From positions 1 to 64,000 of the forward strand of contig WSXX01000019.1 in the NCBI GenBank assembly GCA_009773515.1: a DNA stretch of 64,000 nucleotides, written 5' to 3'. The DNA comes from Bacteroidota bacterium. GTDB lineage: Bacteria > Bacteroidota > Bacteroidia > Bacteroidales > Lentimicrobiaceae. The notes beneath the pieces are model-generated. The model searched no databases and was not told where the DNA came from. It saw only the letters and a list, made by a program, of their open reading frames with translations. A program made the translations under genes and the position numbers. Each line of letters starts with the position of its first letter. The first letter of the stretch is position 1. Below, piece after piece: positions 12,488-55,112 of the stretch.

Positions 12488-12709
12488 GTGTGCTGATTTT
12501 GCTGTTGGCAATCGGGCGCACATTCCCTTAGGCAATCTGTGTTCCTGAAATCAGACAAACATTTGTTGGTGTAGGAAGAAAACTGTCAAATAGATTTTAC
12601 ATCATTGAAAATAAGGCAAATAGACTGGAAGAAAACGGCGTTAGTGTTGTTGGTATAAATTGAAATTTTATTTTTCACATAATTATGGTCTCAAAATCAC
12701 ACACAAAAG

Positions 12710-34005: not shown

Positions 34006-34052
34006 ATTTTCAGTTTGTTAGATTTAATATCAATTCAAATATTCACAGTTGG

Positions 34053-35483: not shown

Positions 35484-35508
35484 AGTGTTTGTTTTATGCA
35501 ATGGTTCA

Positions 35509-37020: not shown

Positions 37021-37035
37021 GAAATTGATTTTTGT

Positions 37036-38340
37036 TTACCTGCGCTCCAGAATTTCTTTTGCAGCCGGCGGTACTTTCACTTCCTGCATCATCGCGGCTT
37101 TGTCGCCATCAAATGTTTTGGTAATTGGTTTGCCGTCGCGGGTTAAACCATCAAAAACGCCGGCATCTACCATATCCCATAAGGCATATTTAGCCTGCGC
37201 TTGCAGATTAAATAACCCGAAATGGTTTTCGGAACCCTGCGGATTTGCAGCATCTTTCCATTGTTCGTCAAACGCCTCAAAATAAAAGCAGGTTATCCCT
37301 TTTGAGTCTGTCCATTGGCGCATCAGATCGTAATAAATTGCTGATTTGTATTCATCGCACGCCCTGGAACCGGCATGGCCATAATATCCGTCGGATTGAG
37401 ATGCCCAGCCGGTTTCGCCGATATGCACGGGTTTATTTACGCCAAGGCTTTGCATGTAAGCCACAACACTTTCGTACTGAGAAATGGCATAGTTTTTTGC
37501 CCTGAGCATAGCCGAATCAATTTTTTCCATGTCCGATAATTCTTCCTCATTTGCGGGCACTCCCCAGAAATCAGGGTTGTAATGGGTGTCGTGCATGGGG
37601 TAGGTATGCATCGAAATGTAATCAACTGACCGGATGAGTTCGTTCAGATCTTCCAGATGATATTCATTTCCACCGCCACCCCAGGAAGCAAAATTGTCAG
37701 AACTTGTGATCCATAAAGTTTCGGGTAATTCGCCTTTTTTCTTCAGTTTCTGCAAATGTTTTACCCATTTAAGGATGATGCCGGGTTCAACATAATATTC
37801 CCAGGCCCAGTGCACCATGGCTTCATTGCCTACAGCAATAATTTTCACAATGTCAGGGTATTGCTGAGTCAGTTCAACAGCACGTTCAATTTCTGTTTCA
37901 TTTGCCGGACTCTCTTCATTCCGGATGCGATCGGGCAAATTGGTAAAGGCATTTTTACAATCGATCCAGGCACCAAGCATCACATACATTTCAAATTGAG
38001 GATCATCTTTTTTTAGTTGGCTGATGGCTTCAAGCAGATTGGCTGCTTCGGCATAATGGACATTGTAGGTACGCAACAACTTGATTCCCATGGCTGACAA
38101 TAATTTCATGTCTTCTTTCAGCTGGGGAATGGTGGGTTGTGTGTCTCTTGTTATTTCGCGATAACCTCCATACGAAATGGCCTGATAGTCGGGGTTGCCC
38201 AAAATATCAGCGGCTGTTTTACCAGTACTGACTGAAGGTTGAGAACATGACACAACCAGCAAAACCGGTACAGATAAAATCATGGAGAGAAGAACTTTCC
38301 TGATTGCATCGATGATTCTATTTATTTTTCCCAAGTGCAT
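37036..38340 (-). CDS. GH17 lipoprotein, beta-1,3-glucanase type
   Basis: A 434-residue protein with a lipoprotein signal (lipobox VVS-Cys32). Its GH17-like barrel carries acid/base Glu173 in IAVGNEAMVHW and nucleophile Glu309 in VHIGETGWASQSDG. FYFEAFDEQWKDA and SMHTYPMHD match the two cytoplasmic GH17 neighbours. The C-terminal 50 residues after the barrel are extra. Residues after Cys32 (SQPSVSTG) carry no acidic cluster, so periplasmic placement is inferred. It probably shortens oligosaccharides before the GPH carriers. It follows the transporter at 38361 by 20 bp. Confidence 0.87.
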   Translation of the reverse strand: MHLGKINRIIDAIRKVLLSMILSVPVLLVVSCSQPSVSTGKTAADILGNPDYQAISYGGYREITRDTQPTIPQLKEDMKLLSAMGIKLLRTYNVHYAEAANLLEAISQLKKDDPQFEMYVMLGAWIDCKNAFTNLPDRIRNEESPANETEIERAVELTQQYPDIVKIIAVGNEAMVHWAWEYYVEPGIILKWVKHLQKLKKKGELPETLWITSSDNFASWGGGGNEYHLEDLNELIRSVDYISMHTYPMHDTHYNPDFWGVPANEEELSDMEKIDSAMLRAKNYAISQYESVVAYMQSLGVNKPVHIGETGWASQSDGYYGHAGSRACDEYKSAIYYDLMRQWTDSKGITCFYFEAFDEQWKDAANPQGSENHFGLFNLQAQAKYALWDMVDAGVFDGLTRDGKPITKTFDGDKAAMMQEVKVPPAAKEILERR

Positions 38341-38360
38341 AATCCTTAAATTAAATCGTT

Positions 38361-39713
38361 TTATGATTCTTTTCTTCGTTGTTCCAGTTCCTGCTGCATT
38401 ACAAGACAGGTTTTGTGGTCAATGGCATAGTAATACAGCAAAATGGCGCACGACATATACAGAACTCCGGGGAAGATGGAAATCATCAGTTTTATTCCGT
38501 TGAGCGAAGTGGCTGATTGCACAGCATTGGGGACAAATTGAAACAAAACAAGCATCCATCCGGCCAGTGCGCCGCCAATTCCCCATCCCGCCTTTTGAGC
38601 GAATGTGGCTGCCGAAAATACCAATCCGGTTGCGCGGCGGCCAAATTTCCATTCGGAGTAGTCAGCAGTGTCGGCAAGCATGGTCCAAAGCAACGGAACG
38701 GCTGGAGCATAAGTGAATTTGGCCAGAATGTTCAGTATGTAAATGGAGTAAATATTTTCGTTTCCCGGAAGATATAACAGAATGAAAAACAGGCCGGAGA
38801 GGAGAGAACTGGCGATATATACATTTCTTTTCCCAAACCGTTTAGCCAGAGGTTTTGAAAAAGGGATACCAATTATCAGCGCAACGGTGCCGATAACATT
38901 AAACAATTGCACGTTTTGCTCCTGTCCGATATAATATTTGAAGTAATAGGCAATGGTCAGATTTTGCAGAGCAAACATGACAAACGAAACTATGCCGACA
39001 AAGAACAGGATTACCCAGGGTCGGTTCCTGAAAAGATTTTTGAGATCCTGTTTAAGATTTTTCTGTTGTTCAGCCGGAGGCTTTACCCTTTCCTTTGTTG
39101 TTTTAAAGGTAATCATGAACAACACAAAGCTGATAGCCGCGAACAGCATCAGGGTGTATTGGTAGCCTTTGGCATTGTCGCCCTTACCGAAATAGTTGGC
39201 CAGATAAAGTGCAGTGCCGGTAACGATAAACTGTCCCACAAAGGCAAAAATAAAGCGATATGAATTTAACCCAGCCCTTTCGTAAGAGTCGGAAGTCATT
39301 ACAGCACCCAGCGAAGAATAAGGCAGGTTGATGGCTGTAAAAACGGTCATCAGCAACAAATAGGTAACTCCTGCGTAAATTACTTTTCCGGTTTGCCCGA
39401 TATCGGGTGTGGAAAAGGCTAGCACAGCAAGTAGGCTATATGGAAGCGCCATCCACAATAAATATGGACGAAACTTCCCCCATCGGGTGTTGGTCCTGTC
39501 AGAAATAATGCCCATTATCGGATCGCTGACCATATCCCAGAAGCGGGCGATAAGCATAATCGTTCCGGCTGCAGCCGCAGATATACCAAAGGTATCGGTG
39601 TAAAAAATTAAAATCCAGAAGCCAACCATATCCCACACAAAATGTGAGGCGGTGTCGCCCAGTCCATACCCGATTTTTTCCTTTACGGATAATTTTGTAG
39701 TATTTTCGCTCAT
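38361..39713 (-). CDS. GPH/MelB-type sugar cation symporter (2)
   Basis: A 450-residue inner-membrane carrier of the GPH family with about 12 hydrophobic segments. Family motifs are ARFWDMVSDPIMGIISDRTN, RWGKFRPYLLW and MLADTADYSEWKFGRRATG. The start is ATG 39713, which overlaps the stop of the upstream phosphorylase by one base (TGATG); a GTG at 39716 is the alternative. Direct coupling to the phosphorylase gene suggests this is the importer that feeds it. It differs clearly from the carrier at 34053, including a shorter N-terminus. Cargo is inferred from context as beta-1,3-glucan oligosaccharides. Confidence 0.88.
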   Translation of the reverse strand: MSENTTKLSVKEKIGYGLGDTASHFVWDMVGFWILIFYTDTFGISAAAAGTIMLIARFWDMVSDPIMGIISDRTNTRWGKFRPYLLWMALPYSLLAVLAFSTPDIGQTGKVIYAGVTYLLLMTVFTAINLPYSSLGAVMTSDSYERAGLNSYRFIFAFVGQFIVTGTALYLANYFGKGDNAKGYQYTLMLFAAISFVLFMITFKTTKERVKPPAEQQKNLKQDLKNLFRNRPWVILFFVGIVSFVMFALQNLTIAYYFKYYIGQEQNVQLFNVIGTVALIIGIPFSKPLAKRFGKRNVYIASSLLSGLFFILLYLPGNENIYSIYILNILAKFTYAPAVPLLWTMLADTADYSEWKFGRRATGLVFSAATFAQKAGWGIGGALAGWMLVLFQFVPNAVQSATSLNGIKLMISIFPGVLYMSCAILLYYYAIDHKTCLVMQQELEQRRKES

Positions 39714-42700
39714 CACTTTTTATTTATTGATACTTCAACTTTTTCAATTTCTCCGGTTCTCCTGAATATCAGATTACTGATTTCATTATTTAAAGTAGTG
39801 CCTTCAATTTCTAGTTTGGTTCCGTTGCCATAATGTACAGAAATCCGGTCGGTATCTGAAATATGATACACAATGGGTGTCTGGCAGAAGGTAAATGCCA
39901 ACTGTCCTGTGGCAAGTTCTATTTCCCCGTTGCCGCCCGCGCATTTTCTGTATTCAAATATACCCTCACCACTATGGAGCTCTTCATTTCGGAGCAACCA
40001 TGGGTTGAAATACAATTTACCTTCATTTACAAACACGCCTAATTCACCAAACCTGACCAGGATATCTTCCTTAACCTGGCCGGTCATTCCGGGTTGCTGG
40101 GCGCCTCTGTGCTTTGGGGTGTGTGAATACGGATCGGTTGGAAAGGCACCATAAAGTTCAGGGGATTTATGCACCCCGATCCCTGCTTCAATTTCGTAAT
40201 AATGATCCATTAATCTGCCGATGACTTTTTTGTCGGCGCCTGTCTCAATGGCTTTCAGGCAACATTCCTGCACTGCCAGATGCAGTTTTGAAACCATGTG
40301 CCAGTAAATTGAACCCAGACCTTCGAACGAATAAAAAGTGCCCGACCTGCCTGTAAAAGCTTTATGATTAAATACTTCCTCAAAAATATCAAGTACCAGT
40401 CTGCGGTCTTTTTCAACGAGTTCATGGTAAACACCCCCAGATTGTTTGTTCAGGGCCTCATTTAGATCAGCGGCATTTTTGAAATTTCCGTTGAAATGCA
40501 AGCCTCCCAGAATATCCAGATCAACAATTTCTTTGTTTCCATCAGCAACCAGCTTTTTAATCAGTTCCGATTTTTGGGCGCTGATGGCAGGAATGTTGTT
40601 CTTTCGCAAAAAGCCGGGTAATTCTTTATCAGGGTATAAGATGTAACTGTACTGATCTTTGCGGAACAAAGCACTGCTTTTTAGTGCGTCCAATACCTCC
40701 AGGGCCTGCTCCGAATTTAAATAACCTGAACTTAACACGGCAACCTGGCCTTCAAGCATTTCGCTCAGGGGTGAACAGGATACTCCGGTATCAGCAGAAG
40801 TCATCAGGTTGTATGCATGGTAAAGTTTATCGGTTCTTTGGTTGGCGCGTATGGAATGTTCGATGAAATCAAGGCAAATACCGGTAAATTCATTCAGCCC
40901 TTCAACCGGGATTCTTTGTTTGCTGCCTTTGAATCCATTGTTGTAAATCTGCTGACGATAGTCTGAAGCGGCCCGTCCAAGGCTGTCAAGAATTGCTTTT
41001 CTGTTGCTATCGCTGATGTTACTTGCCAGCAAGGGGCTAAATTCAGTAAGCGTACCTTTCAGCGCATGGTAAAACACATTCAACTCCTCCGAAATCATTA
41101 CGCTTTCTAATTTGCTTTTTCCCAGAACGTTTCCAAAAAACTTCAAAAAGCGATGCAGATAGTAAAGTGTAACCATTGAAACACCATTTCCTACCAGCGC
41201 ATTGTTGGCATCGTTCCATTCCGGTCGTTGCGTGTTCATCCAGATACCGGCTTCGGGAATAAAATTGGAAATTTTTGCCAGCACTGTTGCCAGTATTTTT
41301 TCGATGAAATTCACATGACAGATTGCCTGGTTGCTATCGGTTAGCAGAGCTCCGTCAGCTCCGATTAATTCGCGGTTTTTCCGGATAACGCCATCCCATT
41401 TATGATCAAATTCAATGGTGTCTTTCGGGTTTTTAAGAATCTGGCTGTAAGGTTTGATTTTATAGGGAACAGCAGCATAGACAAACCAGTCTTTGTCAAA
41501 AAATGATTGCAATGTACCGGGGTAGAACTTTTCAGTGATTTCGAAGAATTTCTGCAGGTAAATAATCTGATGATCACCCCAGTATCCGATATACGACCAG
41601 GGATTATCCGGTTCGATGGTTTCCCAGTCGAATCCGTCTTTTGTGATTCTGTAAGGATTATAACCATCGAATGTGGATGCATTCAGAAATTTGATAATCA
41701 TGTTGGTTACAAATTCGGGATACGAATTTGCCAGCGCTTCCCAGTTTTGGAAAATATCCCGCCAGTTTCCCTCATAATCCAGAATTTCTGATCCATCGGT
41801 TTCGTTCTGAATATTGATGGTAAAATAATTCCAGGGGCGGCTGGGATCACCATGCCTTCGGCTGAATTTTAAAGGAAGATACTCTGCAGAAAGTCTTATC
41901 AGATCAGCATCTTTACATTCTGACAACAGGCTTTTCAGCTCTGATTGGCTGAAAGTTTCCTGAAGTTTACCAATAAACGCATGATTTTTGGCCACAACTT
42001 CTTTATTGGCTTTCATGAGGAAATCAGCAAAATCCCCTTTTTTTATCAGGTAGCCATTATCAAAAATCCCCCCGCGCATGATGTTGAACAGTACATTGGA
42101 AAAATGGCGGGAGTCGTTCAGTTTGTCGGCTGTGAATTGCAGTCCATCGGCACTTGCAACAAGATCAATTAGTTTTTCTGTCCCGGAATCGATATCTTCC
42201 TGAATCTGCCGTTCAAGATTGATATTGTCTTTTATATTTTGTGAAAGGCCAATAATCTGCGGAGAATTCTGATTGACATTGGCTATGAGTTTCCAGTTTT
42301 TCTCACTTTGAGCAGGCAGTAAGATTTCAGAACAAACAAAATAGGCGCCTTTTTCCCCCTTAATATCCGATTCTTCTGCCACTTCCCTGTTCTTTCTGAA
42401 ATTATCAAGTTGCAGTGATGAAAGCAGGTGTTTGGGTTTATCCAGACCCAACGACCAGGCAATATTCGCTTTCAGCGCTTCGCTGGGTTCGGCTTTATCA
42501 ACAATAATGGCGCTGAGGGCATAAATTCCGATTCCGGATGCCGCTTCCAGTTCACTTCTTTTATAAGCATCTACCAGGTTGCTGGTCGATCGTTGCAGGT
42601 CACTGGGAACCCCAAATGGCATTATATTTTGTATTCCATCCAACAGGGTAATCTGGTAATCATTCCCTGAAGTATTTTGTAACGAAGCCTTTCTGACAAA

Positions 42701-43165
42701 ACCAAACAACTTCGAGGAGTTCCACTGATAGCTGAATTTCAAACCCAAATCATGGTTGATTTCTTCGAAGATAATTTTATTGCCATAGATGCTTTTATAA
42801 AGGTTCCGGCTGATGGAATATTTCCCTGTAAACCTTTCAGAAAATGGCTCCCAAATCAGGATGGAATCATCTGTTTGAATCCGGAAAATGGATTTACTTC
42901 CGGTGATGTCGGCCGATTCGGTTATTTTGTCGTCGGTGTAATAGGGGAACAAAGCATATTCAGGATTTTTTCGCCCGGCAGAAAGTCCTCCGTTACTGGA
43001 AATAAACATCCAGTGATTCGAGTCACTTACGATGCTCATAAAAAAGGGACGCATGCCATCGTGATCTGAAATTTTGAAGTAGCTTTCATTTTCATGCTGA
43101 ACTACCTTCATTTCGATTGTTTTCTTTGCAACATTCATTGGGTTTTCCGGATATGCTTTGTTCAT
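39713..43165 (-). CDS. GH94-clan beta-1,3-oligoglucan phosphorylase (GH149/GH161 type)
   Basis: A 1150-residue cytoplasmic enzyme without signal peptide. It should split beta-1,3-glucan oligosaccharides with phosphate to give glucose-1-phosphate, saving ATP. The N-terminal half is beta-rich (beta-sandwich) and the rest is helical, as in GH94-related (alpha/alpha)6 phosphorylases. RPEWNDANNALVGNG carries a WND motif whose Asp652 matches the GH94 general acid. GDPSRPWNYFT, DYEGNWRDIFQNWEAL, TPKHRGAQQPGMTGQVKED and GRSGTFYSFEGLGSIYWHM are other conserved-looking stretches. The length exceeds classical cellobiose phosphorylases (about 800) and fits GH149 or GH161, both reported to act on beta-1,3-glucan oligosaccharides; I cannot decide between them by eye. 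It lies between GH16 (47 bp) and the GPH carrier (1-nt overlap). Confidence 0.82.
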   Translation of the reverse strand: MNKAYPENPMNVAKKTIEMKVVQHENESYFKISDHDGMRPFFMSIVSDSNHWMFISSNGGLSAGRKNPEYALFPYYTDDKITESADITGSKSIFRIQTDDSILIWEPFSERFTGKYSISRNLYKSIYGNKIIFEEINHDLGLKFSYQWNSSKLFGFVRKASLQNTSGNDYQITLLDGIQNIMPFGVPSDLQRSTSNLVDAYKRSELEAASGIGIYALSAIIVDKAEPSEALKANIAWSLGLDKPKHLLSSLQLDNFRKNREVAEESDIKGEKGAYFVCSEILLPAQSEKNWKLIANVNQNSPQIIGLSQNIKDNINLERQIQEDIDSGTEKLIDLVASADGLQFTADKLNDSRHFSNVLFNIMRGGIFDNGYLIKKGDFADFLMKANKEVVAKNHAFIGKLQETFSQSELKSLLSECKDADLIRLSAEYLPLKFSRRHGDPSRPWNYFTINIQNETDGSEILDYEGNWRDIFQNWEALANSYPEFVTNMIIKFLNASTFDGYNPYRITKDGFDWETIEPDNPWSYIGYWGDHQIIYLQKFFEITEKFYPGTLQSFFDKDWFVYAAVPYKIKPYSQILKNPKDTIEFDHKWDGVIRKNRELIGADGALLTDSNQAICHVNFIEKILATVLAKISNFIPEAGIWMNTQRPEWNDANNALVGNGVSMVTLYYLHRFLKFFGNVLGKSKLESVMISEELNVFYHALKGTLTEFSPLLASNISDSNRKAILDSLGRAASDYRQQIYNNGFKGSKQRIPVEGLNEFTGICLDFIEHSIRANQRTDKLYHAYNLMTSADTGVSCSPLSEMLEGQVAVLSSGYLNSEQALEVLDALKSSALFRKDQYSYILYPDKELPGFLRKNNIPAISAQKSELIKKLVADGNKEIVDLDILGGLHFNGNFKNAADLNEALNKQSGGVYHELVEKDRRLVLDIFEEVFNHKAFTGRSGTFYSFEGLGSIYWHMVSKLHLAVQECCLKAIETGADKKVIGRLMDHYYEIEAGIGVHKSPELYGAFPTDPYSHTPKHRGAQQPGMTGQVKEDILVRFGELGVFVNEGKLYFNPWLLRNEELHSGEGIFEYRKCAGGNGEIELATGQLAFTFCQTPIVYHISDTDRISVHYGNGTKLEIEGTTLNNEISNLIFRRTGEIEKVEVSINKK

Positions 43166-43212
43166 TAACTGAGAAAAAGATTGTTAAAGATGATGCTGTC
43201 TGTTGAGTTTTT

Positions 43213-44043
43213 CTAATTAACCTCCTGATAAACCCTCACATAATCGATGATCATTTTTTGCGGGAAAGGGGTTTGGGTAGTTGGAAATCCGACATAATTT
43301 CCGCCCACCGCTACATTGAGCAGGATGAAAAAAGGTTGATCATAAACCCATTGACCGGGAACATCACTTTTTTCAATGCGCTGATACAAATAGTCATCAA
43401 CAAAAAAGTCAATTTTATCAGCATCCCATTCAATTGCAAAAATATGGAAATCCGTATCAAAACGACTATTCGTCAGGGCATAAGCTTTGGAAATCGGATT
43501 CCCGCCCGAATACCCGGGGCCATGAATGGTTCCGTGGATAATGTGGGGTTCCTGCCCCCTGAGTTCCATAATATCAATTTCGCCACATTGTGGCCAGGGT
43601 GTAGTTTCGATGTTTTCGCCCAGCATCCAGAAAGCAGGCCACAATCCGGGCCCATAGGGTGTTTTAATGCGCGCCTCAAAACGGCCATATTTCTGCGCAA
43701 ACAATCCCTGCGTTTTAATTCTTGCCGAGGTAAAATTGCCTTCCCTGATGGCGGTAATTACCAGATTTCCTTTATCATCGAGCGAGATATTTGCAGGATT
43801 GTTGGTATAACTTTGCAATTCGCTGTTGCCCCATCCGTTCTGGCCTGTGCCCAGATCAAAGGTCCACTTTGCAGCATCCGGTAATTGCCCGGCAGTGCCG
43901 TTAAATTCATCGCTCCAGGTTAATTGCCAATTGCGTTCATCCAATTTTTGGAAGTTATCACGTTCACAACCCCAAAAAATAACCATCACCATCAAGAGTA
44001 TGGATTGGATGAGGATTCTCCTGAATTTATTTATTTTATTCAT
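43213..44043 (-). CDS. GH16 lipoprotein, laminarinase type
   Basis: A 276-residue endo-beta-1,3-glucanase of the GH16 laminarinase group. The lipoprotein signal has its lipobox at FWG-Cys26, and the residues after Cys (ERDN) include acidic positions compatible with surface export. The jelly-roll shows WSDEFNGTAG, GLWPAFWMLG and the catalytic GEIDIMEL (Glu155, Asp157, Glu160; ExDxxE form lacking the extra Met-bulge residue difference needed for subgroup calls). HGTIHGPGYSGG and FHIFAIEWDADKI are typical. It likely performs the first cleavage of laminarin-like glucan outside. It is followed by the phosphorylase and preceded by the binding lipoprotein (41 bp). Confidence 0.93.
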   Translation of the reverse strand: MNKINKFRRILIQSILLMVMVIFWGCERDNFQKLDERNWQLTWSDEFNGTAGQLPDAAKWTFDLGTGQNGWGNSELQSYTNNPANISLDDKGNLVITAIREGNFTSARIKTQGLFAQKYGRFEARIKTPYGPGLWPAFWMLGENIETTPWPQCGEIDIMELRGQEPHIIHGTIHGPGYSGGNPISKAYALTNSRFDTDFHIFAIEWDADKIDFFVDDYLYQRIEKSDVPGQWVYDQPFFILLNVAVGGNYVGFPTTQTPFPQKMIIDYVRVYQEVN

Positions 44044-44084
44044 TTTTGTAAGATTTAATGTTTACAAGACAAGCCCTGTTATGA

Positions 44085-45950
44085 TTAATTTTTCCGGAAG
44101 TAAATGTTATCCAGATAGATGTCACCATTTCCGTCGAATTTGAGTTGAATAACATCACTTAGATTCACCGGTGCAAAGGATGATAGCGGAATGTCGATAC
44201 TTGTCCAGCCAGAAGTTGGAACCGTCAAAGAATATCCGGTTTCAACAGGCCCGGGGCTAATCAGAAAGACATTGAGTGTTGTTGAATTTGCTGTCCAGAA
44301 GTCCAGATGCAAAAATCCCATTGACGAAACATTCTGGCTTGCGCCCAATTCAATCCCCTGATAGTTGAGACCAGCATATTTCAATGTGTTATTTCCCTGA
44401 ATTGGCACTGTGGTGACAACTGTTGCCTGTGCCCAGTCCGGATTAAGGTTAGTACCAGGAATTGGTGTATAAGCATCGCTGAACACCGAAATCACATTGG
44501 CCGCCGGATGGGTTGGAGTTGAAGCTGCAACAGTTGGTTCACCGCCCGGAGGAGGTGGGGTTCCATTGCTGTAGAAATAAATATTATCGGCATAAAATCC
44601 TGAAATCATGTTGTTTTCATTCACAAAAATGATCTGCATGAGCTTATCAGTGCTGTTTAGCCCGGTAAATTCAGAGAATGGCAAATCAAGGCCAACCCAC
44701 CTCTTTGACTGTAAAGCAGGGATATTGGCGATATAAGTAGCTGAGCTGGCTGCGCCTTCATTCACCAGTTCTATTTTCAGCTGAGCATCTGCGGCGAGGG
44801 TATTTGGTATGTAAATATCCAGGTGCAGGTGGGTCATTGCAGTGGCATCCACGGTTGGAGAGCTGAATTCAATACCCACAAAGTTAAAATCAATATATTG
44901 AAGAATCTGATCTCCGTTTATTTCAAAATCGGCCGATGTCGTGGTTTGATAGGGCGCCCAGTAACCATTGTAGTAATTCACAGGCACGTTGGTGTATGCA
45001 TTGCTGAAGATGGAAATTACGTCATCAGCGGCATGCACCGGCAGAGGGGCCTGCTGAAAATTACCAATGGACTGTAAAGTGAGCGAACCCAGGACAGCGG
45101 CATCACCGACCATGGCTGTAATTTCGGCACTGCCAGGGCCTCCCACTACAATAACTTCACCAGATTCATCCACGGTAGCTATGCTCTTGTTGGATGAAGT
45201 AAAAGTAAAATATGCTGTAGCAGCATTTAACGATTGATTAACTCCGTCAGGCAGGTTGTAGATTGCCGTTAATCCACTGATCTGTTGTGTAACTCCGATA
45301 AATGTTGTTTCTACCTTGTCTTCACCATTGAAAATAGTAAACTGCGGATGGGCAATGGTTCCAAGATTTTCAAACTTCACTTCATCTATCCAGAAAGAAT
45401 AACCTTTACCATCTACAGGCCCCGTTGAGTAGAAAAACATCCCTCGCTCAGCAGTTAATACTGATGAATTGGGCAGAGGGATATAATATTTTTTCCAATT
45501 GGTACTTACCTGTAAACCTGAGATGGTGGCCTGGTATTTTGAGGCTCCGAGGTCATTTCCAAACCCGACAAGGTCCAAAACAGCAGATTCTGAAGCTTTT
45601 GCCCAGAATGTCAAAGCAGTATAGCCCGATAAGTTTCTGCCCGCTTCGGTAAAGAAAACGCCTCCGGCATAAGCTCCCCTGGGATCCCCTGCGTTTGGAA
45701 CATCAAATCGCATAGAAGCTTTTGAATTGTTGTAAGTCTCCTTTGTGTCGACATCAAAAGCGGTTGGCACTGAGCCTCCGAAGGCAGCATAGTTTAATCC
45801 GGCACTAAACCCGTCAATAAATACTTCGGGAGTATCAGGAAATGTAACAGGTTTCAGATCGCCAAGCTCGCGCTCGCACCCCATCAGAAGTAAAACAAGG
45901 AAACCTGTGGGGATATATTTTTTTAAAATGATGAGAATATTTGTTTTCAT
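44085..45950 (-). CDS. multi-module glucan-binding-type lipoprotein
   Basis: A 621-residue lipoprotein with lipobox LLMG-Cys25 followed by ERELGD, an acid-rich start suggestive of surface display. Layout: an N-terminal beta-sandwich (about 45-196, ASMRFDVPNAGDPRGAYAGG), a BIG2-like immunoglobulin domain (about 205-293, with SNKSIATVDESGEVIVVGG), then two module-B domains (about 308-460 and 484-621) of the same kind as in the T9SS protein at 30243 (VISVFSDAYT ... DNIYF). No catalytic motifs were seen. It probably takes the SusE/SusF-like role of binding glucan at the outer membrane, next to the enzyme-barrel fusion encoded 14 bp upstream. Binding itself is inferred. Confidence 0.78.
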   Translation of the reverse strand: MKTNILIILKKYIPTGFLVLLLMGCERELGDLKPVTFPDTPEVFIDGFSAGLNYAAFGGSVPTAFDVDTKETYNNSKASMRFDVPNAGDPRGAYAGGVFFTEAGRNLSGYTALTFWAKASESAVLDLVGFGNDLGASKYQATISGLQVSTNWKKYYIPLPNSSVLTAERGMFFYSTGPVDGKGYSFWIDEVKFENLGTIAHPQFTIFNGEDKVETTFIGVTQQISGLTAIYNLPDGVNQSLNAATAYFTFTSSNKSIATVDESGEVIVVGGPGSAEITAMVGDAAVLGSLTLQSIGNFQQAPLPVHAADDVISIFSNAYTNVPVNYYNGYWAPYQTTTSADFEINGDQILQYIDFNFVGIEFSSPTVDATAMTHLHLDIYIPNTLAADAQLKIELVNEGAASSATYIANIPALQSKRWVGLDLPFSEFTGLNSTDKLMQIIFVNENNMISGFYADNIYFYSNGTPPPPGGEPTVAASTPTHPAANVISVFSDAYTPIPGTNLNPDWAQATVVTTVPIQGNNTLKYAGLNYQGIELGASQNVSSMGFLHLDFWTANSTTLNVFLISPGPVETGYSLTVPTSGWTSIDIPLSSFAPVNLSDVIQLKFDGNGDIYLDNIYFRKN

Positions 45951-45964
45951 CTTTTTGTGTTTTT

Positions 45965-48900
45965 TTATTTACCAATATTTATACGCACATAAGTCCTGAT
46001 TTCCCATTCATTGCCATTGTCAAATCCAACAGCTTCCGGATCGGGCACCAAAGCTCCGCTTGCTTCAAGCTTGTATGTTGGCGCGTAACGGGGAGAATAC
46101 TTGTCGAGCGTGCGGTATGTTGCCCGCAATCCGATCTCGGTATTCGGAAGTTCAAACCAGTCAGGTTTTTTCAGAGAGGTTGAAATGTCAGCCATAAGCT
46201 GAAGCGGGAACGTTAAGTTGTAATCGCGATGGTAGTCGTAAGGACCCCAGTCGTTTATTCGGGCAAAAGAAGTGAGTTTAACTTCCTTGTAAATCATACG
46301 TAAGTCAATGCCATAGCGCCTGATGAGCCGGTCGTCGCTTCCATTGCCCTGGGCGTCGCCGGCATAGATGTTTGCAATAAAACCAAAATCGCTGCTGACT
46401 TTCGAAACCAGTCTGGAGTGGATCTCCCATAAATCTTTGGCAGGTGCGGCACCCGGGAAAGCAAATGTGGTGCGGCCATCGGGTAAAATGCCGATCGCAG
46501 CATCCTGCGTAGTTGGCAAATGCCGGTAAACAAAGCCTAAACTTACAGCAAGTTCTGCATCTTCTGAACGGTCACTATCCCAGTTGTACATCCAGGTACC
46601 AGGCGTGGGGTCGTATGTAAGTAATATTTCGCCGGAAACCTGCTCCCTGTTTCCTCTTACCACAAAAGGATCGTCAAGGATGTTTCTGGGTCTGCCGGGG
46701 GCTGGTACATCGGAAGGAATAGGTCCTTCGATGGGTTTTTGCCACAGGAAATTAGGAGCCACCTGAAAATCTCCGATCAAATAAGTAGCACCGGTCAGGA
46801 AATTATATTGGTTTCCGCTACCGCTGTCTTTTAACCTCCAGCCGGTAAAGGTAATTGTTTGATCAGCTCCACCTTGCGCCACCAGGCCCATGGCTGCCGA
46901 CTGTGCATACCAGTTAAACCGGCCTCCTTTGTAGGTTAATTTTATTTTACCTCCGAAATTATCCTGTGCCTTGATTTCATCTTTATAAACAGTGTAATTC
47001 CCTTCTTCTCCCCTTACAACCTGAAATTCTCTTCCCTGCAAGGGTTGACCGGCCCAGATTCCTCCGGCATTTACGCCGGATTTGCCAAATTCCCTGTTCA
47101 GATGTAAGGTCAATCGCCTGGTTTTGGGCTGTGGAATGGCAAATGAACTCTCTGTCAGCCCAAGTTGAGCGAGGTCTTCATGATAAATACCGGTAAAATT
47201 GAACTTTGCAATACTTTTACTGTATTTCAGCAATACTGCAGGATTCGCTCCCCACCATAACTGCGGGCCAAAGGCAAGTTTGAAATCACTGAACTTTTGT
47301 TTGCCCGTCATTTCAAATCCAAAAGGCGCAATACCATTATAAATGTCAATATTAGGCCCGTAGTTGGCTTCAGGGTAAAGTCCGAAGAAATCACCTTCAT
47401 TCCCCCAGTGGTAATGCCCCGTGCGATAAAAGCCCTTTAGATCGAACAATTTATGATCCCAATGGTAACTGGCCTTATAAACCTGAACCCGGTCAACAGA
47501 GCCCAGCGTTACATTTCCATTGCTGCCCGTTACTTCAACAGGACGGCCCCGGTTTTCATAGAATATCTGATCGATAGGATTCAGCGCCACATTACCCAAA
47601 ATATTAAATTCAATATCAGCACTGAAATTACTTGACGGATTTGCGGCAACACCAACATAGAATGACTGCATATGGTCGAAACCCAGCTGATTCGGGAAAA
47701 CCGGATTATTCGGATCGGCTACATCAGGTGTAGAAATTAAACTGCCTCCCGTGTTAAAAGTTGTGTTTTGTGCACTAAAACGGCTCAGGCTGATTTTTTT
47801 CAGCTTTTCCCCTTCCAGTGCGGCCTTGTCGCCCCTGGCTTTAAGCAGCGATTCCACAACCTGAATGCCGCTGAAGTGTTGCTGTATGGTTTGCAAATTG
47901 GTGCCAACGGCGTAGGGATTAATTTGGTGGGCTTCTTTTAAAGCATAATATGAAGCCCTTGGAAACAACTGGTAAAACCCTTTTGCATTGGTGGGGCCTT
48001 TGGCGCAAATTCCGAACCACTCCTCATTCATGTTGTTTTGGCCTGCCTTGTAATCAAATAAATATCCGCCGTTTGACCATGAAGCATGGGAGTCGTGAAC
48101 ATCAAGGAATTCGGTCTGGCCATACTTCCACCAGCCATCGCTGAACTGAAAAGTAAAACCTCCCAACGAATTACCCGCTTTCCCGATTCCGGCCGCATTT
48201 TCATATATTTCTTTCCAGTTGGCTACATTGTAAATGGCCTGTTCTTTTTGCGCCTCTTCCATGGTGATGGCATTAAAACCATCAGACCCAAATTCAGTCA
48301 AGAGGACGGGTTTACCGTATTCTTTCTTAACTCTGTCAAACATATCGGTAAATGAAATACCCCGGTAAACGTTTATTCCAAAGATATCTACATCTTTACA
48401 TTCTTCTGCGATGATATCGAGAAACAGCAGGTCGCCGTTGCAGATTGACACGGGATGATTCGGGTCAATGGCTTTCATGGCCACTGAGGCTTCGTTGAAT
48501 AGTTTATAAAGGTAACGGGCCATTTGTGTCGATTCCCTGTCTTCCATCGGGATATCTTCGGTTTCGGCACCACGCCAGAATAGTCCGTAGTTGTTTTCAT
48601 TTCCCAGAAGATATAGCAATAGTCCGGGGGTGTTTCTGTATTCTTCAACCAGCGCTGTTACTTCCTTTAAAAGAAGTTCCTTTACCCGGGGATCAGCATA
48701 ATCGGTGTTTCCTTCCCATGCCCCGTCGAGCGTAAGCCCGTATCTCCCGAAAGAATGATTGAGCATGGTATAAATACCGTAAGTTTCATAGATGTACGTA
48801 ATCCATTTGGGTTGGATACCAGTGTAAACACGAATGGTATTCACATTCATGTTCTTCAGCAGCGACATCTCATCATCAAGCGCCTTTTTGATAAAGTCGT

Positions 48901-49099
48901 CGGATTGAGTCCATAAGCTGTAGGAGTAATTGGTGCCAATGGGGAAATAATCCCAGTTCATACCATTTACCATGAAACTTTGATCATTTACCATAAGTTT
49001 CATTCCTTTTTCAGTATTTTCTATTGCAACCTTCTGAGGTTGAGCCAACAGAGAAATAGAGAAACTTAATAAAATCAGAGCAAGAAATTTTTGTTTCAT
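45965..49099 (-). CDS. GH-A clan glycosidase fused to an outer-membrane beta-barrel
   Basis: A 1044-residue protein, first gene of the glucan operon. After a signal peptide (1-19, SISLLAQ) comes a TIM barrel (about 35-400) of GH2/GH72-like clan A type. DEMSLLKNMNVNTIRVYTG leads in, the likely acid/base Glu168 is in YLLGNENNYG and the nucleophile Glu269 in VLLTEFGSDG. From about 430 to the C-terminus the sequence is a long series of amphipathic strands with aromatic girdles (FKLAFGPQLWWGANP, RFNWYAQSAAMGL, FQVAPNFLWQ, AELAVSLGFVYRHLP, TEIGLRATYRTLD), ending EIRTYVRINIGK, like a porin or alginate-export barrel. No TonB box, plug or CarboxypepD_reg domain is seen. The pairing would place an enzyme on a channel, perhaps replacing SusC in this SusCD-less locus. 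Which side the enzyme faces is unknown. GH family assignment is tentative. Confidence 0.75.
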   Translation of the reverse strand: MKQKFLALILLSFSISLLAQPQKVAIENTEKGMKLMVNDQSFMVNGMNWDYFPIGTNYSYSLWTQSDDFIKKALDDEMSLLKNMNVNTIRVYTGIQPKWITYIYETYGIYTMLNHSFGRYGLTLDGAWEGNTDYADPRVKELLLKEVTALVEEYRNTPGLLLYLLGNENNYGLFWRGAETEDIPMEDRESTQMARYLYKLFNEASVAMKAIDPNHPVSICNGDLLFLDIIAEECKDVDIFGINVYRGISFTDMFDRVKKEYGKPVLLTEFGSDGFNAITMEEAQKEQAIYNVANWKEIYENAAGIGKAGNSLGGFTFQFSDGWWKYGQTEFLDVHDSHASWSNGGYLFDYKAGQNNMNEEWFGICAKGPTNAKGFYQLFPRASYYALKEAHQINPYAVGTNLQTIQQHFSGIQVVESLLKARGDKAALEGEKLKKISLSRFSAQNTTFNTGGSLISTPDVADPNNPVFPNQLGFDHMQSFYVGVAANPSSNFSADIEFNILGNVALNPIDQIFYENRGRPVEVTGSNGNVTLGSVDRVQVYKASYHWDHKLFDLKGFYRTGHYHWGNEGDFFGLYPEANYGPNIDIYNGIAPFGFEMTGKQKFSDFKLAFGPQLWWGANPAVLLKYSKSIAKFNFTGIYHEDLAQLGLTESSFAIPQPKTRRLTLHLNREFGKSGVNAGGIWAGQPLQGREFQVVRGEEGNYTVYKDEIKAQDNFGGKIKLTYKGGRFNWYAQSAAMGLVAQGGADQTITFTGWRLKDSGSGNQYNFLTGATYLIGDFQVAPNFLWQKPIEGPIPSDVPAPGRPRNILDDPFVVRGNREQVSGEILLTYDPTPGTWMYNWDSDRSEDAELAVSLGFVYRHLPTTQDAAIGILPDGRTTFAFPGAAPAKDLWEIHSRLVSKVSSDFGFIANIYAGDAQGNGSDDRLIRRYGIDLRMIYKEVKLTSFARINDWGPYDYHRDYNLTFPLQLMADISTSLKKPDWFELPNTEIGLRATYRTLDKYSPRYAPTYKLEASGALVPDPEAVGFDNGNEWEIRTYVRINIGK

Positions 49100-51795: not shown

Positions 51796-52746
51796 ATGAA
51801 TCAACCCAAATATTCATTTGCTGTAAAGAAGAACCATCGATTATTTGTGCGGAAAATATTTCTTCTTTTTACACTGCCTTTAGTAACCTTCTTCATCTTC
51901 TCCTGCCAGAAAACCAGAGACGATTTATTGCCGAAAGGCAGAAGTCAAATGTATTTTCAGTCAATACTTTGCCCGGATAGTTCTATCAGGGTGTTTGTTG
52001 GCAGAACAGCTGGTATTCAAGATGATAACTCACCGGTTAATGATGCCATTGTGCTTGCGTTTGTAAACAATGTTTTTGCTGATACATTGCAATTTGTTGA
52101 AAATGGCATTTATGAGTTGTGGAGACAACCTGAGATTTATGATACTGTAAGAATAGAAGTGATATCAAACGGTAAGATGAGTGGAGAAACCATCATACCT
52201 TCACCCGCATATGTCAACAATTCAAGTTATGTGTGTTCTACCCATTATTATGCCCTTGATCAGGAATACCATGGCACACTTACCTTTTCTATTGAAGATG
52301 ATCCGGAGACTGAAAATTATTACGAAATGCTCATATACACCCGTGAAGAGTTGTCAGGAGGGAGTTACAGGATATATTCAAAAGTAAGCGATTATTATAT
52401 TTTTAAACCGGATATTATTATTCAAAACGAGGGGGACTGGGATTTTAAGCCTACAACATTATTTTTCAGTGATAAAATGTTTGACGGTAAAACCGGTTAT
52501 TTTTCATTTATAATGTCAGTTTCAGATGAGTACGGATATATAACCTTGCGCAGTATTTCGAAGGAGTATTATTATTACCGTAAGTATTATACCCGTCATG
52601 CCTTCAATGCACAATTAAATTCAGATGGGATACGCAACCTCCTGTTCACCGGAGAACCTTTGGATATGTACACCAACATACAGGGAGGTCTTGGCGTATG
52701 TGCCGCATATAGTTCAACCGTTACTAAAATAGAAAGTAAACCATGA
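51796..52746 (+). CDS. DUF4249 lipoprotein, partner of the TonB receptor
   Basis: A 316-residue lipoprotein of the DUF4249 kind, which usually precedes a TonB-dependent receptor. The signal has a long positively charged n-region and lipobox FIFS-Cys37. An Ig-like N-terminal domain follows (SIRVFVGRTAGIQDDNSPVNDAIV), with the rest beta-rich and aromatic (EYYYYRKYYTRHAF). The stop overlaps the receptor start in ATGA (52743-52746), so both are co-translated. It probably forms a surface lid or substrate-binding partner for the receptor, as SusD does for SusC but of a different fold. Cargo unknown. Confidence 0.85.
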   Translation: MNQPKYSFAVKKNHRLFVRKIFLLFTLPLVTFFIFSCQKTRDDLLPKGRSQMYFQSILCPDSSIRVFVGRTAGIQDDNSPVNDAIVLAFVNNVFADTLQFVENGIYELWRQPEIYDTVRIEVISNGKMSGETIIPSPAYVNNSSYVCSTHYYALDQEYHGTLTFSIEDDPETENYYEMLIYTREELSGGSYRIYSKVSDYYIFKPDIIIQNEGDWDFKPTTLFFSDKMFDGKTGYFSFIMSVSDEYGYITLRSISKEYYYYRKYYTRHAFNAQLNSDGIRNLLFTGEPLDMYTNIQGGLGVCAAYSSTVTKIESKP

Positions 52747-55112
52747 GATATACAGCATTAACCTTATTAATAGGCTTTATTTATATTCAAGCCGTTGCAC
52801 AACACACCATGCAGGGTTATATATCAGATGAAAAAACCGGCGAAAAACTTATTGGCTGTTCGGTGTACATTTCAGGAACCACAGAGGGTGTGACCAGCAA
52901 TAATTACGGATTTTACAGTATAAAAGTAAATATGCTTCCTTCTTGGTTGGTTTTCAGCTATATAGGATATAAATCTGACACCGTTCAATTTGTTTCTGCC
53001 GGCAGCAATATTGACATAGCACTCACTCAAAAATCGAGTACCCTCAAAGAGGTTGAAATAAAAGCCTCTGGTACTTTTACATCATCACCCAGAATGGGAG
53101 TACTTACCATTCCCGTGAAGCAGATAAAACAATTGCCGGCACTGGGTGGCGAAGTAGATGTGCTGAAAGTCTTTCAGCTAATGCCTGGCGTACAGGGCGG
53201 AAATGAAGGAACAAGTGCTTTGTATGTAAGAGGCGGCACTCCCGACCAGAATCTTATTCTGCTGGATGATATACCTTTATACTATGTTAACCATATAGGT
53301 GGTTTTGTTTCGGTGTTTGATGTAAATGCGATTAACGACATAAAGCTAATCAAAGGCGGATTTCCTGCCCGCTATGGCGGAAGGTTAAGCAGTGTAGTGG
53401 ATATCAGAATGAAAAGCGGAAATTCATCTGAAATTAAAGGTGAATATGGTATTGGCCTACTAGCAAGTCGCATATTTATTGAAGGCCCGGTGTTAAAAAA
53501 GGAGAAAACAAAGTTTATGTTCAGCCTGCGCAGATGCAATCTTGACCTTGCTACCAGATTAATAACAAGAATGCAAAGTGGTTTGGTTTTCAGTGCCGGT
53601 TATACATTTTATGATTTGTATTCAAAACTTACACACGAAATTGATGCTAAGAATTCACTTTCGTTTTCATTTTACAACGGGCGCGATAATATCTTTTTCA
53701 AACAAAGAGATCCTGTTGCTGATGGTGCTGATACCTTTTTCGATTTTCAGTCAAATGTCATATGGGGTAACACACTTGCATCAGTCAAGTGGAATCATCA
53801 GTACAATAAAAATGTTTTCGGAACCCTGACATTTGCCTATACACATTTTAATTACCTGAACCGGGTACAGTACGAAGAAAAATACAAGAGCGACAAAGAA
53901 GTGATTGAAAAAGCCAGTACTTCATTTGTTTCAGGGGTTAATGATCTGATTTTGAAAAAGGATTTTGATTATTTTGTCTCAAACAGCTTTTCACTTAAAA
54001 TGGGAGCCGGTTATACCAATCATCAGTTTAACCCCGGGGTTCACACTTACAGAAGCTTTGCTACTGATTCGGCTGCCGGATCGCAAAGATTATATTCCAA
54101 TGAAATAACCGCTTATGCCGAAGGAGAATTTTCGATTTCCCCTAAAATTAACACAAATGCCGGTCTTCATTTCAATACATATTTTGAAGGCGTTGCTATT
54201 TTCCCTTCATTACAGCCCAGAATAACAGTGAATTACAACATGCGACCCAACTGGGCAGTAAAAACAAGTTTTGTTTACATGCAGCAGAATCTGCATCTTT
54301 TATCAAACAATGGAGCAGGATTACCTACAGATCTGTGGGTTCCGGCCACTTCAACCACAAGCCCGCAATACAGTTTCCTTTATAGTGCCGGGCTTTTTCA
54401 CACTTTCGAAAACAAGGGTGTTGAAATTAGTATTGAGGGGTATTATAAATCGCTTAGCAATCAGATTGAGTTCAGCGAAGGTGCAAGCTTTTTTGGCGGA
54501 TCAAATGAATGGGAAGATAAAATAGAAAGAGACGGCAAAGGAAGAGTATATGGTGTGGAGTTTCTTGCTCAGAAAGAACATGGCAGGTTAACCGGATGGG
54601 TAGGCTATACACTTAGCTATAATTTCAGGAAATTTGACAACATCAACCACGGCGAATGGTTTCCCTATAAATTTGACCGCAGACATTATTTCACCATAGC
54701 AGCAAACTACACCCTGAAAAAGAATATAATATTCAGTGGTGATTTTATATTCAATACCGGCAATGCCATTACACTACCCGATGGCAAATATCCAACCATA
54801 AACGAAGAATTTAAACAGGGTATTTTCCCAGGTACTTTGCCGATTTTTAATCAAGTGTATGACATCACATACACGTATTCCGGAAGAAACCAAAGCCGTA
54901 TGCCGGTTTACCACAGGATTGATCTTGCGGTAAGGTTCATCAAGGAAAAGAAAAAAGGAACCCGTGAATGGGTGATTTCGGTTTATAACGTTTACAGCCG
55001 TGAAAATCCTTATTTTGTTTATATGCAGCATGATAAGCAAAAAAAACTGCACCTCTACCAAATTACGCTTTTCCCGATAATTCCATCATTTACTTATGTG
55101 AGGAGCTTTTGA
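52743..55112 (+). CDS. TonB-dependent outer-membrane receptor
   Basis: A 789-residue receptor. Signal peptide 1-19 (IQAVAQ); CarboxypepD_reg-like domain about 22-100 (MQGYISDEKTGEKLIGCSVY). The plug domain (about 120-230) has MPGVQGGNEGTSALYVRGG and QNLILLDDIPLYYVNHIGG. A 22-strand-type barrel follows to the C-terminus (PSFTYVRSF, ending in Phe). It is shorter than SusC-type receptors (about 1000 residues) and is paired with DUF4249 instead of SusD, so it is not the importer of the glucan locus. It probably takes up a metal complex, peptide or other small ligand. It converges with the universal stress gene. Confidence 0.9.
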   Translation: MRYTALTLLIGFIYIQAVAQHTMQGYISDEKTGEKLIGCSVYISGTTEGVTSNNYGFYSIKVNMLPSWLVFSYIGYKSDTVQFVSAGSNIDIALTQKSSTLKEVEIKASGTFTSSPRMGVLTIPVKQIKQLPALGGEVDVLKVFQLMPGVQGGNEGTSALYVRGGTPDQNLILLDDIPLYYVNHIGGFVSVFDVNAINDIKLIKGGFPARYGGRLSSVVDIRMKSGNSSEIKGEYGIGLLASRIFIEGPVLKKEKTKFMFSLRRCNLDLATRLITRMQSGLVFSAGYTFYDLYSKLTHEIDAKNSLSFSFYNGRDNIFFKQRDPVADGADTFFDFQSNVIWGNTLASVKWNHQYNKNVFGTLTFAYTHFNYLNRVQYEEKYKSDKEVIEKASTSFVSGVNDLILKKDFDYFVSNSFSLKMGAGYTNHQFNPGVHTYRSFATDSAAGSQRLYSNEITAYAEGEFSISPKINTNAGLHFNTYFEGVAIFPSLQPRITVNYNMRPNWAVKTSFVYMQQNLHLLSNNGAGLPTDLWVPATSTTSPQYSFLYSAGLFHTFENKGVEISIEGYYKSLSNQIEFSEGASFFGGSNEWEDKIERDGKGRVYGVEFLAQKEHGRLTGWVGYTLSYNFRKFDNINHGEWFPYKFDRRHYFTIAANYTLKKNIIFSGDFIFNTGNAITLPDGKYPTINEEFKQGIFPGTLPIFNQVYDITYTYSGRNQSRMPVYHRIDLAVRFIKEKKKGTREWVISVYNVYSRENPYFVYMQHDKQKKLHLYQITLFPIIPSFTYVRSF

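Follow-up and report, generated by a model that had tools for sequence, protein, structure and literature searches.

A glycosidase fused to a predicted outer-membrane beta-barrel, widespread in bacteria, is a candidate substitute for the standard importers of an abundant algal polysaccharide

A protein that carries a glycosidase and a predicted outer-membrane beta-barrel in one chain is widespread in bacteria. It may take over the role of the machinery by which an abundant polysaccharide of algae is normally imported. We favor, with some confidence, the reading that this fusion works as a porin for glucan import, with its glycosidase in the periplasm where the chains exit, and that it is partnered by a lipoprotein which binds glycan at the cell surface, the two standing in place of SusC/SusD. 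More tentatively, at somewhat less than an even chance, we propose that an undescribed Bacteroidota outer-membrane uptake system is involved, in which the one-chain pore-glycosidase and the lipoprotein replace SusC/SusD, cleavage at the exit rather than TonB energy draws in beta-1,3-glucan, and the barrel would constitute a new family known so far only together with the enzyme.

A single gene encodes both domains

The fusion gene lies in the window, which is the whole 64,000-nucleotide stretch of DNA that was analyzed. An ORF check of the window gave 1044 uninterrupted codons from ATG to stop on the minus strand; an earlier note on this DNA did not state the strand. The features of the gene are as follows.

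45965..49099, minus strand: glycosidase/outer-membrane beta-barrel fusion gene, a single ORF of 1044 amino acids and the first gene of its operon
49043..49099, minus strand: signal peptide, residues 1-19, with probable cleavage before Gln20 (from the sequence; Q20 at least 90% conserved)
47915..49030, minus strand: GH-A TIM barrel domain, residues 24-395 (AF2 model; Pfam Glyco_hydro_2_C; Foldseek GH158)
48596..48598, minus strand: codon of Glu168, predicted acid/base
48293..48295, minus strand: codon of Glu269, predicted nucleophile
47795..47914, minus strand: linker, residues 396-435, with helices 402-410 and 414-432 (AF2 model)
45971..47794, minus strand: predicted beta-barrel of about 24 strands, residues 436-1043 (AF2, Foldseek, alternation test; no sequence family)

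The signal peptide ends in ...LLAQ, and by the usual cleavage rule we take Gln20 to be the probable first mature residue. Relatives carry a single gene too, rather than the frameshift-joined pair that the earlier note had allowed for: among the best 80 of 578 matching stretches the fusion occupies one open frame, complete in 78 and cut by contig ends in 2. This conserved frame refutes a sequencing or assembly artefact that fused two genes, to which we assign next to no probability; the halves do lie on two contigs in one genome (G005), but there they stop at contig edges.

Among 395 sampled Bacteroidota genomes, 33 have the fusion and nine have the enzyme alone. The barrel domain occurs in 35 of these genomes, comprising the 33 fusions, one frameshifted copy and one relic of 59 residues behind a stop. 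No intact barrel separate from the enzyme was found in this sample, in searches that scored no more than a small number of first-look candidates in each genome (2, 3, 7 or 2, by search; where seven were scored, any open frame of at least 940 amino acids was counted as a fusion, its length being the sole criterion). The fusion is present in named species of Flavobacterium and Chryseobacterium, and a homologue is on record from a human-gut genus, in Bacteroides finegoldii.

Some barrel losses have occurred, because two enzyme-alone copies retain barrel relics, of 59 residues behind a stop (L150) and of 29 residues where the enzyme is interrupted as well (L193). Set against these relics are seven enzyme-alone rows that may be basal in a tree rooted only at its midpoint (the frameshifted L151 is omitted); enzyme-alone copies are perhaps not always derived.

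The N-terminal half resembles clan GH-A glycosidases

We modelled the protein with AF2 from 76 aligned homologues (mean pLDDT 78.7, pTM 0.65); a run on the sequence alone gave a pLDDT of 30 and was discarded. The alignment (A1), which is nearly free of gaps, comprises the window protein and 75 of the 80 loci, with near-copies or cut sequences omitted (L006, L033, L036, L038 and L066). Two smaller sets of 27 sequences (A2, A3) comprise the window protein and 26 of the 80 loci.

The earlier note had read the N-terminal half as a GH-A TIM barrel with Glu168 in GNEN and Glu269 in TEFG, and this assignment is supported. The model places a TIM barrel at residues 24-395, and both predicted catalytic glutamates stand at these positions, invariant in all 76 rows. 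They follow the pattern of retaining clan GH-A enzymes, with an Asn-Glu acid/base after beta4 (N167-E168) and a Glu nucleophile after beta7 (E269), and align to N136-E137 and E220 of the laminarinase BuGH158.

Only GH-A-type TIM barrels match the N-terminal half of the window protein in Pfam, where Glyco_hydro_2_C (E 1.9e-6) and Glyco_hydro_cc (6.8e-5) pass the cut-off; the former also matches 25 of the 27 homologues at E <=0.01. In Foldseek the TIM domain finds GH158 laminarinases first (best E 2.7e-12), and a GH158 profile search gives weak matches, in pieces only, to 6pal (E 4.7e-6) and 9oro (1.9e-4). VIA-align ties GH158 with GH2 and GH157, in rows that mostly cover residues 16-411, so that the barrel was hardly probed by this method; families absent from its list remain candidates. 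By fold and profile, the modelled enzyme domain is nearest to GH158, GH157 and GH2 barrels.

Each of these resemblances has its limits. GH158 beta-1,3-glucanases (BuGH158, GH158(Pro)) and GH157 share the TIM fold and the aligned catalytic glutamates and imply the same polymer, but BuGH158 continues into an Ig-like domain where the fusion has a linker and barrel, and the profile match is weak. The GH2 likeness lies in Glyco_hydro_2_C and in the name given to the B. finegoldii homologue, whereas no GH2 N-terminal sandwich or Ig-like domain matches in Pfam, the TIM domain already begins at residue 24, and the GH2 name leaves out the C-terminal 600 residues. The GH72-like traits proposed in the earlier note survive in part: 10 of the 27 homologues match Pfam GH72 at E <=0.01, and the window protein stays below cut-off (E 7.1e-4). 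GH72 was rejected as the enzyme family, with Glyco_hydro_72 scoring 19.4 bits on the whole protein and 22.9 on the N-terminal half against a cut-off of 25.9.

The C-terminal half is a predicted outer-membrane barrel

A porin-type barrel of 16 to 18 strands had been suggested after residue 430. Our analysis also predicts an outer-membrane barrel within this chain, but with about 24 strands: DSSP on the AF2 model counts 24 in an antiparallel meander across residues 436-1043. Foldseek matches the C-terminal half to outer-membrane barrels, namely FepA (1fep, 1.8e-8), BtuB (1nqe, 2.1e-8) and MOMP (5ldt, 7.7e-8), with a loose superposition on BtuB (rmsd 13.1 A, TM 0.38 when normalized by target length). 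By sequence, searches of Pfam, NCBIfam and the PDB matched no family (27 C-terminal halves in Pfam and NCBIfam), and neither a plug domain nor CarboxypepD_reg matches the protein in Pfam.

Mean hydrophobic alternation over the barrel strands is 2.41. Shuffling the entire half gives 1.28 +/- 0.20 and shuffling within strands gives 1.40 +/- 0.22, and 0 of 2000 shuffles of either type reach the observed value; the test is not independent of the AF2 model, because the strands came from it. Three strands (436-453, 538-548 and 905-917) alternate little. Together with the signal peptide, the model thus presents amphipathic antiparallel strands, long loops and short turns, as in outer-membrane barrels. 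Long gaps between strands (7-36, mean 23) alternate with short ones (2-21, median 2), and by this pattern strand 1 would begin in the periplasm, on the side of the short turns.

Co-variation among 114 unique barrel sequences (~86 effective) is higher for neighboring strands, 0.89 versus 0.56 (sd 0.24), yet neighbors make up only 10 of the 23 strand pairs with the highest scores, and 38 of 252 non-neighbor pairs reach the score of the closing pair. Closure of the barrel and the number of its strands are predictions from one AF2 model (pTM 0.65) with loose superpositions.

The long loops are conserved like the strands (entropy 0.95 and 0.98, compared with 1.20 for turns), and loops 559-592 (0.32), 614-620 (0.05) and 952-962 (0.21) are near-invariant. 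The linker is helical and variable, and at 1.73 is the least conserved stretch after the signal peptide, which would be odd for a helix inside a conserved pore. Such a helix is what autotransporter-like surface display would call for: the barrel would be a translocator with helix 414-432 through its pore, and the glycosidase an extracellular glucanase on the cell surface. We consider this unlikely, even though signal peptide, passenger, helix and C-terminal barrel follow one another as in type V secretion, strand 1 begins in the periplasm under both readings, and a surface glucanase would make sense beside a surface-type lipoprotein. Classical autotransporter barrels have 12 strands, compared with the ~24 predicted here, and no autotransporter family appears among the Pfam or NCBIfam matches of the 27 C-terminal halves. 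Surface display would also leave the operon lacking an outer-membrane entry route, and adds a surface glucanase to an operon in which GH16 already bears a surface-type signal.

The fusion heads a beta-1,3-glucan operon

The fusion had been described as heading an operon for beta-1,3-glucan use that lacks SusC/SusD, and the neighboring genes bear this out: GH149, GH16, GH30 and GH17 genes are in the operon, and there is no SusD in the 64,000-nucleotide window. The neighbors are as follows.

44085..45950, minus strand: lipoprotein that has an acidic post-Cys signal and contains CBM11-like and Big_2 fragments
43213..44043, minus strand: GH16 lipoprotein, acidic post-Cys signal
39713..43165, minus strand: GH149 beta-1,3-glucan phosphorylase (NCBIfam 1760.7 bits against a cut-off of 1150), with no signal peptide visible
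38361..39716, minus strand: GPH-family sugar symporter
37036..38340, minus strand: GH17 lipoprotein, non-acidic post-Cys signal (above Pfam cut-off)
35509..37020, minus strand: GH30 lipoprotein, non-acidic post-Cys signal
34053..35501, minus strand: MFS_2 sugar transporter
33085..34005, minus strand: GH17, no visible signal peptide (above Pfam cut-off)
32172..33104, minus strand: GH17-like, no visible signal peptide (Pfam 26.4 bits, just under the cut-off of 28.2)
30243..32057, minus strand: protein with weak similarity to the lipoprotein family and a T9SS sorting tail (gap 114; may not belong to the operon)
27457..30153, minus strand: Y_Y_Y / LuxR-type regulator (gap 89; may not belong to the operon)
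52743..55112, other strand, outside the operon: TonB receptor with plug and CarboxypepD_reg, the one SusC-like protein of the window

Scans of the DNA gave 17 promoter-like sites versus 14.6 expected and four terminator-like sites versus 7.3 expected. Most of the other fusion loci are likewise gene clusters for beta-1,3-glucan (GH16, GH149, GH17, GH30), and at least 32 of the 80 have a homologue of the Y_Y_Y / LuxR-type regulator within the DNA around each locus. GH149 was found in 58 of the 80, and the putative glucan substrate is therefore less sure for the remaining loci.

PgaA and BcsC, which are polysaccharide-export barrels with a periplasmic domain ahead of a C-terminal barrel, have the layout seen here, and like type V autotransporters they combine an N-terminal soluble domain with a C-terminal barrel. 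Export or remodelling of a self-made glucan is nevertheless very improbable, as the recognized neighbors are degradative enzymes or transporters (GH16, GH149, GH17, GH30, symporters), with no glycosyltransferase recognized in the operon. The fusion also differs from both groups in matching no related family, in its ~24 predicted strands, and in its GH domain.

A surface-type lipoprotein accompanies the barrel

The lipoprotein gene adjacent to the fusion has a homologue in 77 of the 80 fusion loci, and the three misses are contigs that end 0, 101 and 217 bases past the fusion. It is also present at 29 of 29 further fusion loci, from the phylum sample, compared with 0 of 28 enzyme-alone loci (for the phylum-sample loci L113-L141, lipoprotein and SusD were sought in ~1.5 kb on each side). 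On the tree this link comprises four independent events, two of them on well-supported branches, and a sign test is not significant because the independent events are too few. Where a lipobox was recognized (51 of 83 in the lipoprotein family, 43 of 74 GH16, 19 of 39 GH17 and 10 of 26 GH30), acidic signals occur in 48 of the 51, 38 of the 43, 1 of the 19 and 0 of the 10, respectively.

With profiles that passed leave-one-out, SusD was found in none of the 80 fusion loci and SusC-like pieces in two, on the opposite strand in L055 and at the locus end in L060; the search reached at least 7 kb downstream in 65 of the 80, and the fusion starts at least 7 kb into the locus in 56. The idea that barrel and SusCD exclude each other exactly was ruled out, as SusD is also not seen in 24 of the 28 enzyme-alone loci within the DNA around each (less than 5 kb for L147, L198, L205 and L211). 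Elsewhere in the genome, SusD genes are among the matches listed for 33 of 33 genomes tested, that of the window included (the test took in the window's genome and the genomes of 33 of the 80 loci, L081 not included), and another SusCD might therefore carry glucan.

The barrel could then serve mainly as an outer-membrane anchor for the lipoprotein and for a glucanase in the periplasm, with glucan entering through another SusCD or a general porin. Enzyme-alone orthologues do manage with no barrel in similar gene sets, but anchoring has no need of ~600 residues with near-fixed long loops, and a lipoprotein signal serves the same purpose, as in enzyme-alone copies L143 and L146. Furthermore, the lipoprotein tracks the barrel and not the enzyme, and we regard the anchor as quite unlikely.

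A possible mechanism of import

As a dedicated importer of beta-1,3-glucan (laminarin-type) carrying its own glycosidase, the fusion would work as follows. Surface lipoproteins would bind the glucan (44085-45950) and shorten its chains (GH16), after which the chains would cross a large, plug-less outer-membrane pore of ~24 strands formed by the C-terminal domain, steered by the conserved long loops. The retaining GH-A glycosidase, in the periplasm at the pore exit, would cleave or remodel the emerging chains, making passage effectively one-way with no need of TonB. Periplasmic GH17 and GH30 would then trim the backbone and beta-1,6 branches, and GPH/MFS symporters would import the oligosaccharides for phosphorolysis by cytoplasmic GH149. 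Coupling of cleavage to passage, which the earlier note also raised, is plausible, with indirect support from the barrel never being intact apart from the enzyme in our sample, the absence of SusD, and the lipoprotein that tracks the barrel.

Relationship to known systems

Laminarin is a very abundant algal polysaccharide whose uptake by Bacteroidota is described via SusC/SusD, and the available parts of two reports treat laminarin loci in these terms (PMC6298971, PMC6794258). Like SusC/SusD TonB-dependent importers, the fusion loci encode a predicted outer-membrane barrel together with glucan-degradation genes and a surface-type lipoprotein, and TonB-dependent barrels are among the Foldseek matches of the predicted barrel. 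Unlike them, the fusion has no plug, CarboxypepD_reg or SusD, and the glycosidase is in the barrel's own chain. A laminarin system of Formosa likewise has a transporter fused to a hydrolase of beta-1,3-glucan (FbGH17b; PMC6246565), although, as far as the accessible part of that source goes, its transporter is an alpha-helical MFS protein of the inner membrane, the enzyme belongs to another family, and the domain order is reversed.

In the literature searched, which had most subscription papers outside its scope, we recognized no glycosidase fused to an outer-membrane barrel. GH149 clusters that lack SusCD are already in print, with no outer-membrane route named for them in the accessible portion of the paper (PMC5827456), and the fusion is a concrete candidate for such a route. 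It also makes testable whether a glycosidase at the exit can give direction to an outer-membrane pore. The open portions of two papers contain the labels 'GH2 beta-glycosidase' in Muricauda loci (PMC13188888) and 'GH0' in laminarin loci (PMC10108472), either of which may refer to the enzyme domain described here. The B. finegoldii homologue is annotated 'glycoside hydrolase family 2 TIM barrel-domain containing protein', a name that can conceal a 600-residue membrane domain, and surveys keyed to SusC/D would therefore overlook such loci.

The fusion gene and its operon

The observation in the earlier note is borne out, apart from its strand count. The fusion gene is a single intact ORF and the first in a tight run of genes.

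45965-49099, minus strand: fusion gene of 1044 codons; its product has a signal peptide and, in the AF2 model, a TIM barrel of GH-A-like type (residues 24-395) that a linker of 40 residues joins to a long C-terminal half rich in strands
32172-49099, minus strand: ten genes separated by -20 to 47 bases; the fusion gene is followed by genes for a lipoprotein, a GH16 protein, a GH149 phosphorylase, a GPH symporter, a GH17 lipoprotein, a GH30 protein, an MFS_2 transporter and, lastly, two proteins of GH17 type
Past the run, minus strand: two further genes at gaps of 114 and 89 bases, for a T9SS-tailed protein and then a Y_Y_Y regulator

The two GH17-type proteins have no visible signal, and one scores slightly below the Pfam cut-off. 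The run is a beta-1,3/1,6-glucan degradation set, in which the fusion is the sole recognised candidate for an outer membrane channel. Passages in two papers on marine Bacteroidota laminarin loci give accounts in SusC/D terms (PMC6298971, PMC6794258), another notes GH149 clusters that lack SusCD (PMC5827456), and an MFS-GH17 fusion is known (PMC6246565). A survey of 76 outer membrane pore families describes fusions to other domains as rare and has no glycosidase in its fusion section (PMC4827864). Our literature search found no recognised fusion of a glycosidase to an outer membrane barrel, which is not proof of absence.

The enzyme half

The enzyme half is a clan GH-A domain near the GH158, GH157 and GH2 barrels. 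Glyco_hydro_2_C and "cc" match the window protein above Pfam cut-offs, and GH72 and GH53 match below them; among 27 homologous N-terminal halves, the corresponding counts at E <=0.01 are 25 (Glyco_hydro_2_C), 17 ("cc") and 10 (GH72). A profile of these 27 sequences has two matches at E <=0.01 among PDB sequences, both GH158, and Foldseek likewise ranks GH158 first for the enzyme-half model, while VIA-align groups GH157, GH2 and GH158 together (Z 25-26). In the profile alignment, E168 and E269 correspond to E137 and E220 of BuGH158, whose residue numbers are alignment positions plus 22, an offset deduced from the chain numbering. Changing either BuGH158 residue to alanine is described as abolishing activity (PMC7157763).

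The predicted membrane half

The model of the C-terminal half has 24 strands, the hairpin at 691-708 being taken as part of a loop, rather than the 16 to 18 proposed in the earlier note; the first spans 436-453 and the last 1029-1043. Long gaps between strands (7-36 residues) alternate with short ones (2-21, median 2), just as loops and turns do in outer membrane barrels. Hydrophobic alternation of the strands, which are drawn from the same model, exceeds that in 2000/2000 shuffles, with three strands showing little. Foldseek partners of the model are FepA, BtuB and MOMP. The window's C-terminal half has no match in Pfam or NCBIfam, and 27 homologous halves have only stray ones, the best in NCBIfam being a TonB receptor model (2/27, E 0.013); no PDB sequence is a credible match (best E 0.16). 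Conservation in the long loops matches that in the strands, with 559-592, 614-620 and 952-962 nearly fixed, which suggests that these loops bind a defined ligand or partner.

Genetic company

One genome per species was scanned for 84,980 species, giving 578 matching stretches, of which the best 80 were kept. Homologues of the lipoprotein occur in 77 of these 80 fusion loci, GH16 in 70, GH149 in 58, GH17 (437-aa type) in 39, the regulator in 32 and GH30 in 29, counts that are lower bounds because many loci are cut. The three loci that lack the lipoprotein stop 0, 217 and 101 bases past the fusion, and the lipoprotein is present in 29/29 further fusion loci from the phylum sample. Its profile matches none of 28 enzyme-alone loci (glycosidase without barrel) and none of four short loci (L223-L226). 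The partner lipoprotein, which may bind the predicted barrel or act as its lid, is encoded at 44085-45950 (minus strand); it is 621 aa long in the window, 435 in locus L212 and 843 in L213, and has no single Pfam family.

SusD was found in 0/80 fusion loci, both by phmmer and by a nine-member profile that gives scores of 187-669 bits to members left out of it. SusC-like pieces occur in two of the 80, on the opposite strand in L055 and at the end of L060. Among enzyme-alone loci, L144, L145, L200 and L206 have SusD, adjoined by SusC in three, and L195 and L196 have weak SusC-like matches.

The fusion is also present in a record of the gut Bacteroides species Bacteroides finegoldii (L212, NZ_OY725931.1), under the annotation "glycoside hydrolase family 2 TIM barrel-domain containing protein". 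Next to it come a protein that scores 450 bits against the lipoprotein profile, then GH16, two further genes and BglX. Five seed sequences each for SusC and SusD gave no match in 30 kb of this record. Although deposited as a plasmid, it may be a misfiled piece of chromosome, since rpsA and a gene for valyl-tRNA ligase lie on it along with the fusion operon.

Distribution and history

The fusion is old and stable. Both halves lie in one frame in 80/80 of the best loci among the 578 stretches. In a Bacteroidota sample, 45/395 genomes match: 33 fusions (that of G334 truncated at a contig edge), nine enzyme-alone, one frameshifted and two remote partial matches. With the barrel alone as query, 35/395 genomes match, comprising the same 33 fusions, the frameshifted copy and a genome in which a relic of 59 residues lies behind a stop. 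In the class to which one enzyme-alone genome belongs, 62/244 genomes match, at 63 places (34 open frames of at least 940 aa, 27 enzyme-alone, two broken or at an edge), and one genome, G547, has both forms. In the window's taxonomic order, the 15/393 matching genomes comprise eight with full fusions, three with pieces at contig edges (G005, G910, G782), three with enzyme-alone copies (G943, G917, G945) and one with another C-terminal domain (G929).

Mapped on a tree built from 104 enzyme domains, enzyme-alone status requires four changes, at least two on well-supported branches; a first tree of 115 rows gave five. Barrel loss has occurred, as relics remain in L150 and L193. Locus L225 (1501-3573, plus strand) has the same TIM domain with a different C-terminal part of ~290 aa that belongs to no Pfam family, adjoining an MFS transporter gene. 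Fusion copies in L049, L078 and L079 come from MAGs labelled Thermoanaerobaculia, Verrucomicrobia and Calditrichia, and may reflect gene transfer or mis-binning.

Predicted topology and proposed import

A signal with two or more acidic residues at +2 to +7 is a mark of surface lipoproteins in Bacteroidota. With lipoboxes called by a simple pattern, lipobox-bearing proteins carried such a signal in 48/51 cases for the lipoprotein family, 38/43 for GH16, 1/19 for GH17 and 0/10 for GH30. The set thus probably divides into surface, periplasmic and cytoplasmic layers. Among enzyme-alone copies, some signals resemble those of lipoproteins and others do not, a mixture that points neither way.

The even strand number, the start of strand 1 on the short-turn side and the variable linker would place the glycosidase on the periplasmic side. 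The same three features are compatible with an autotransporter-like topology, a less likely alternative. With a periplasmic glycosidase, glucan hydrolysis may give import its direction. The coupling of cleavage to outer membrane passage proposed in the earlier note is plausible and has stronger support now than when first put forward.

Other genes in the window

9041-12535, minus strand: gingipain-type protein of peptidase family C25 that has a propeptide and a T9SS sorting tail
51796-55112, plus strand: DUF4249 protein adjoining a TonB-dependent receptor that has Plug and CarboxypepD_reg domains; both lie outside the operon
20229-26336, minus strand: 2035-aa protein with weak sub-cut-off Pfam matches only (T9SS tail, Amnionless)
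2824-4329, minus strand: protein with an AlgX-like SGNH hydrolase domain
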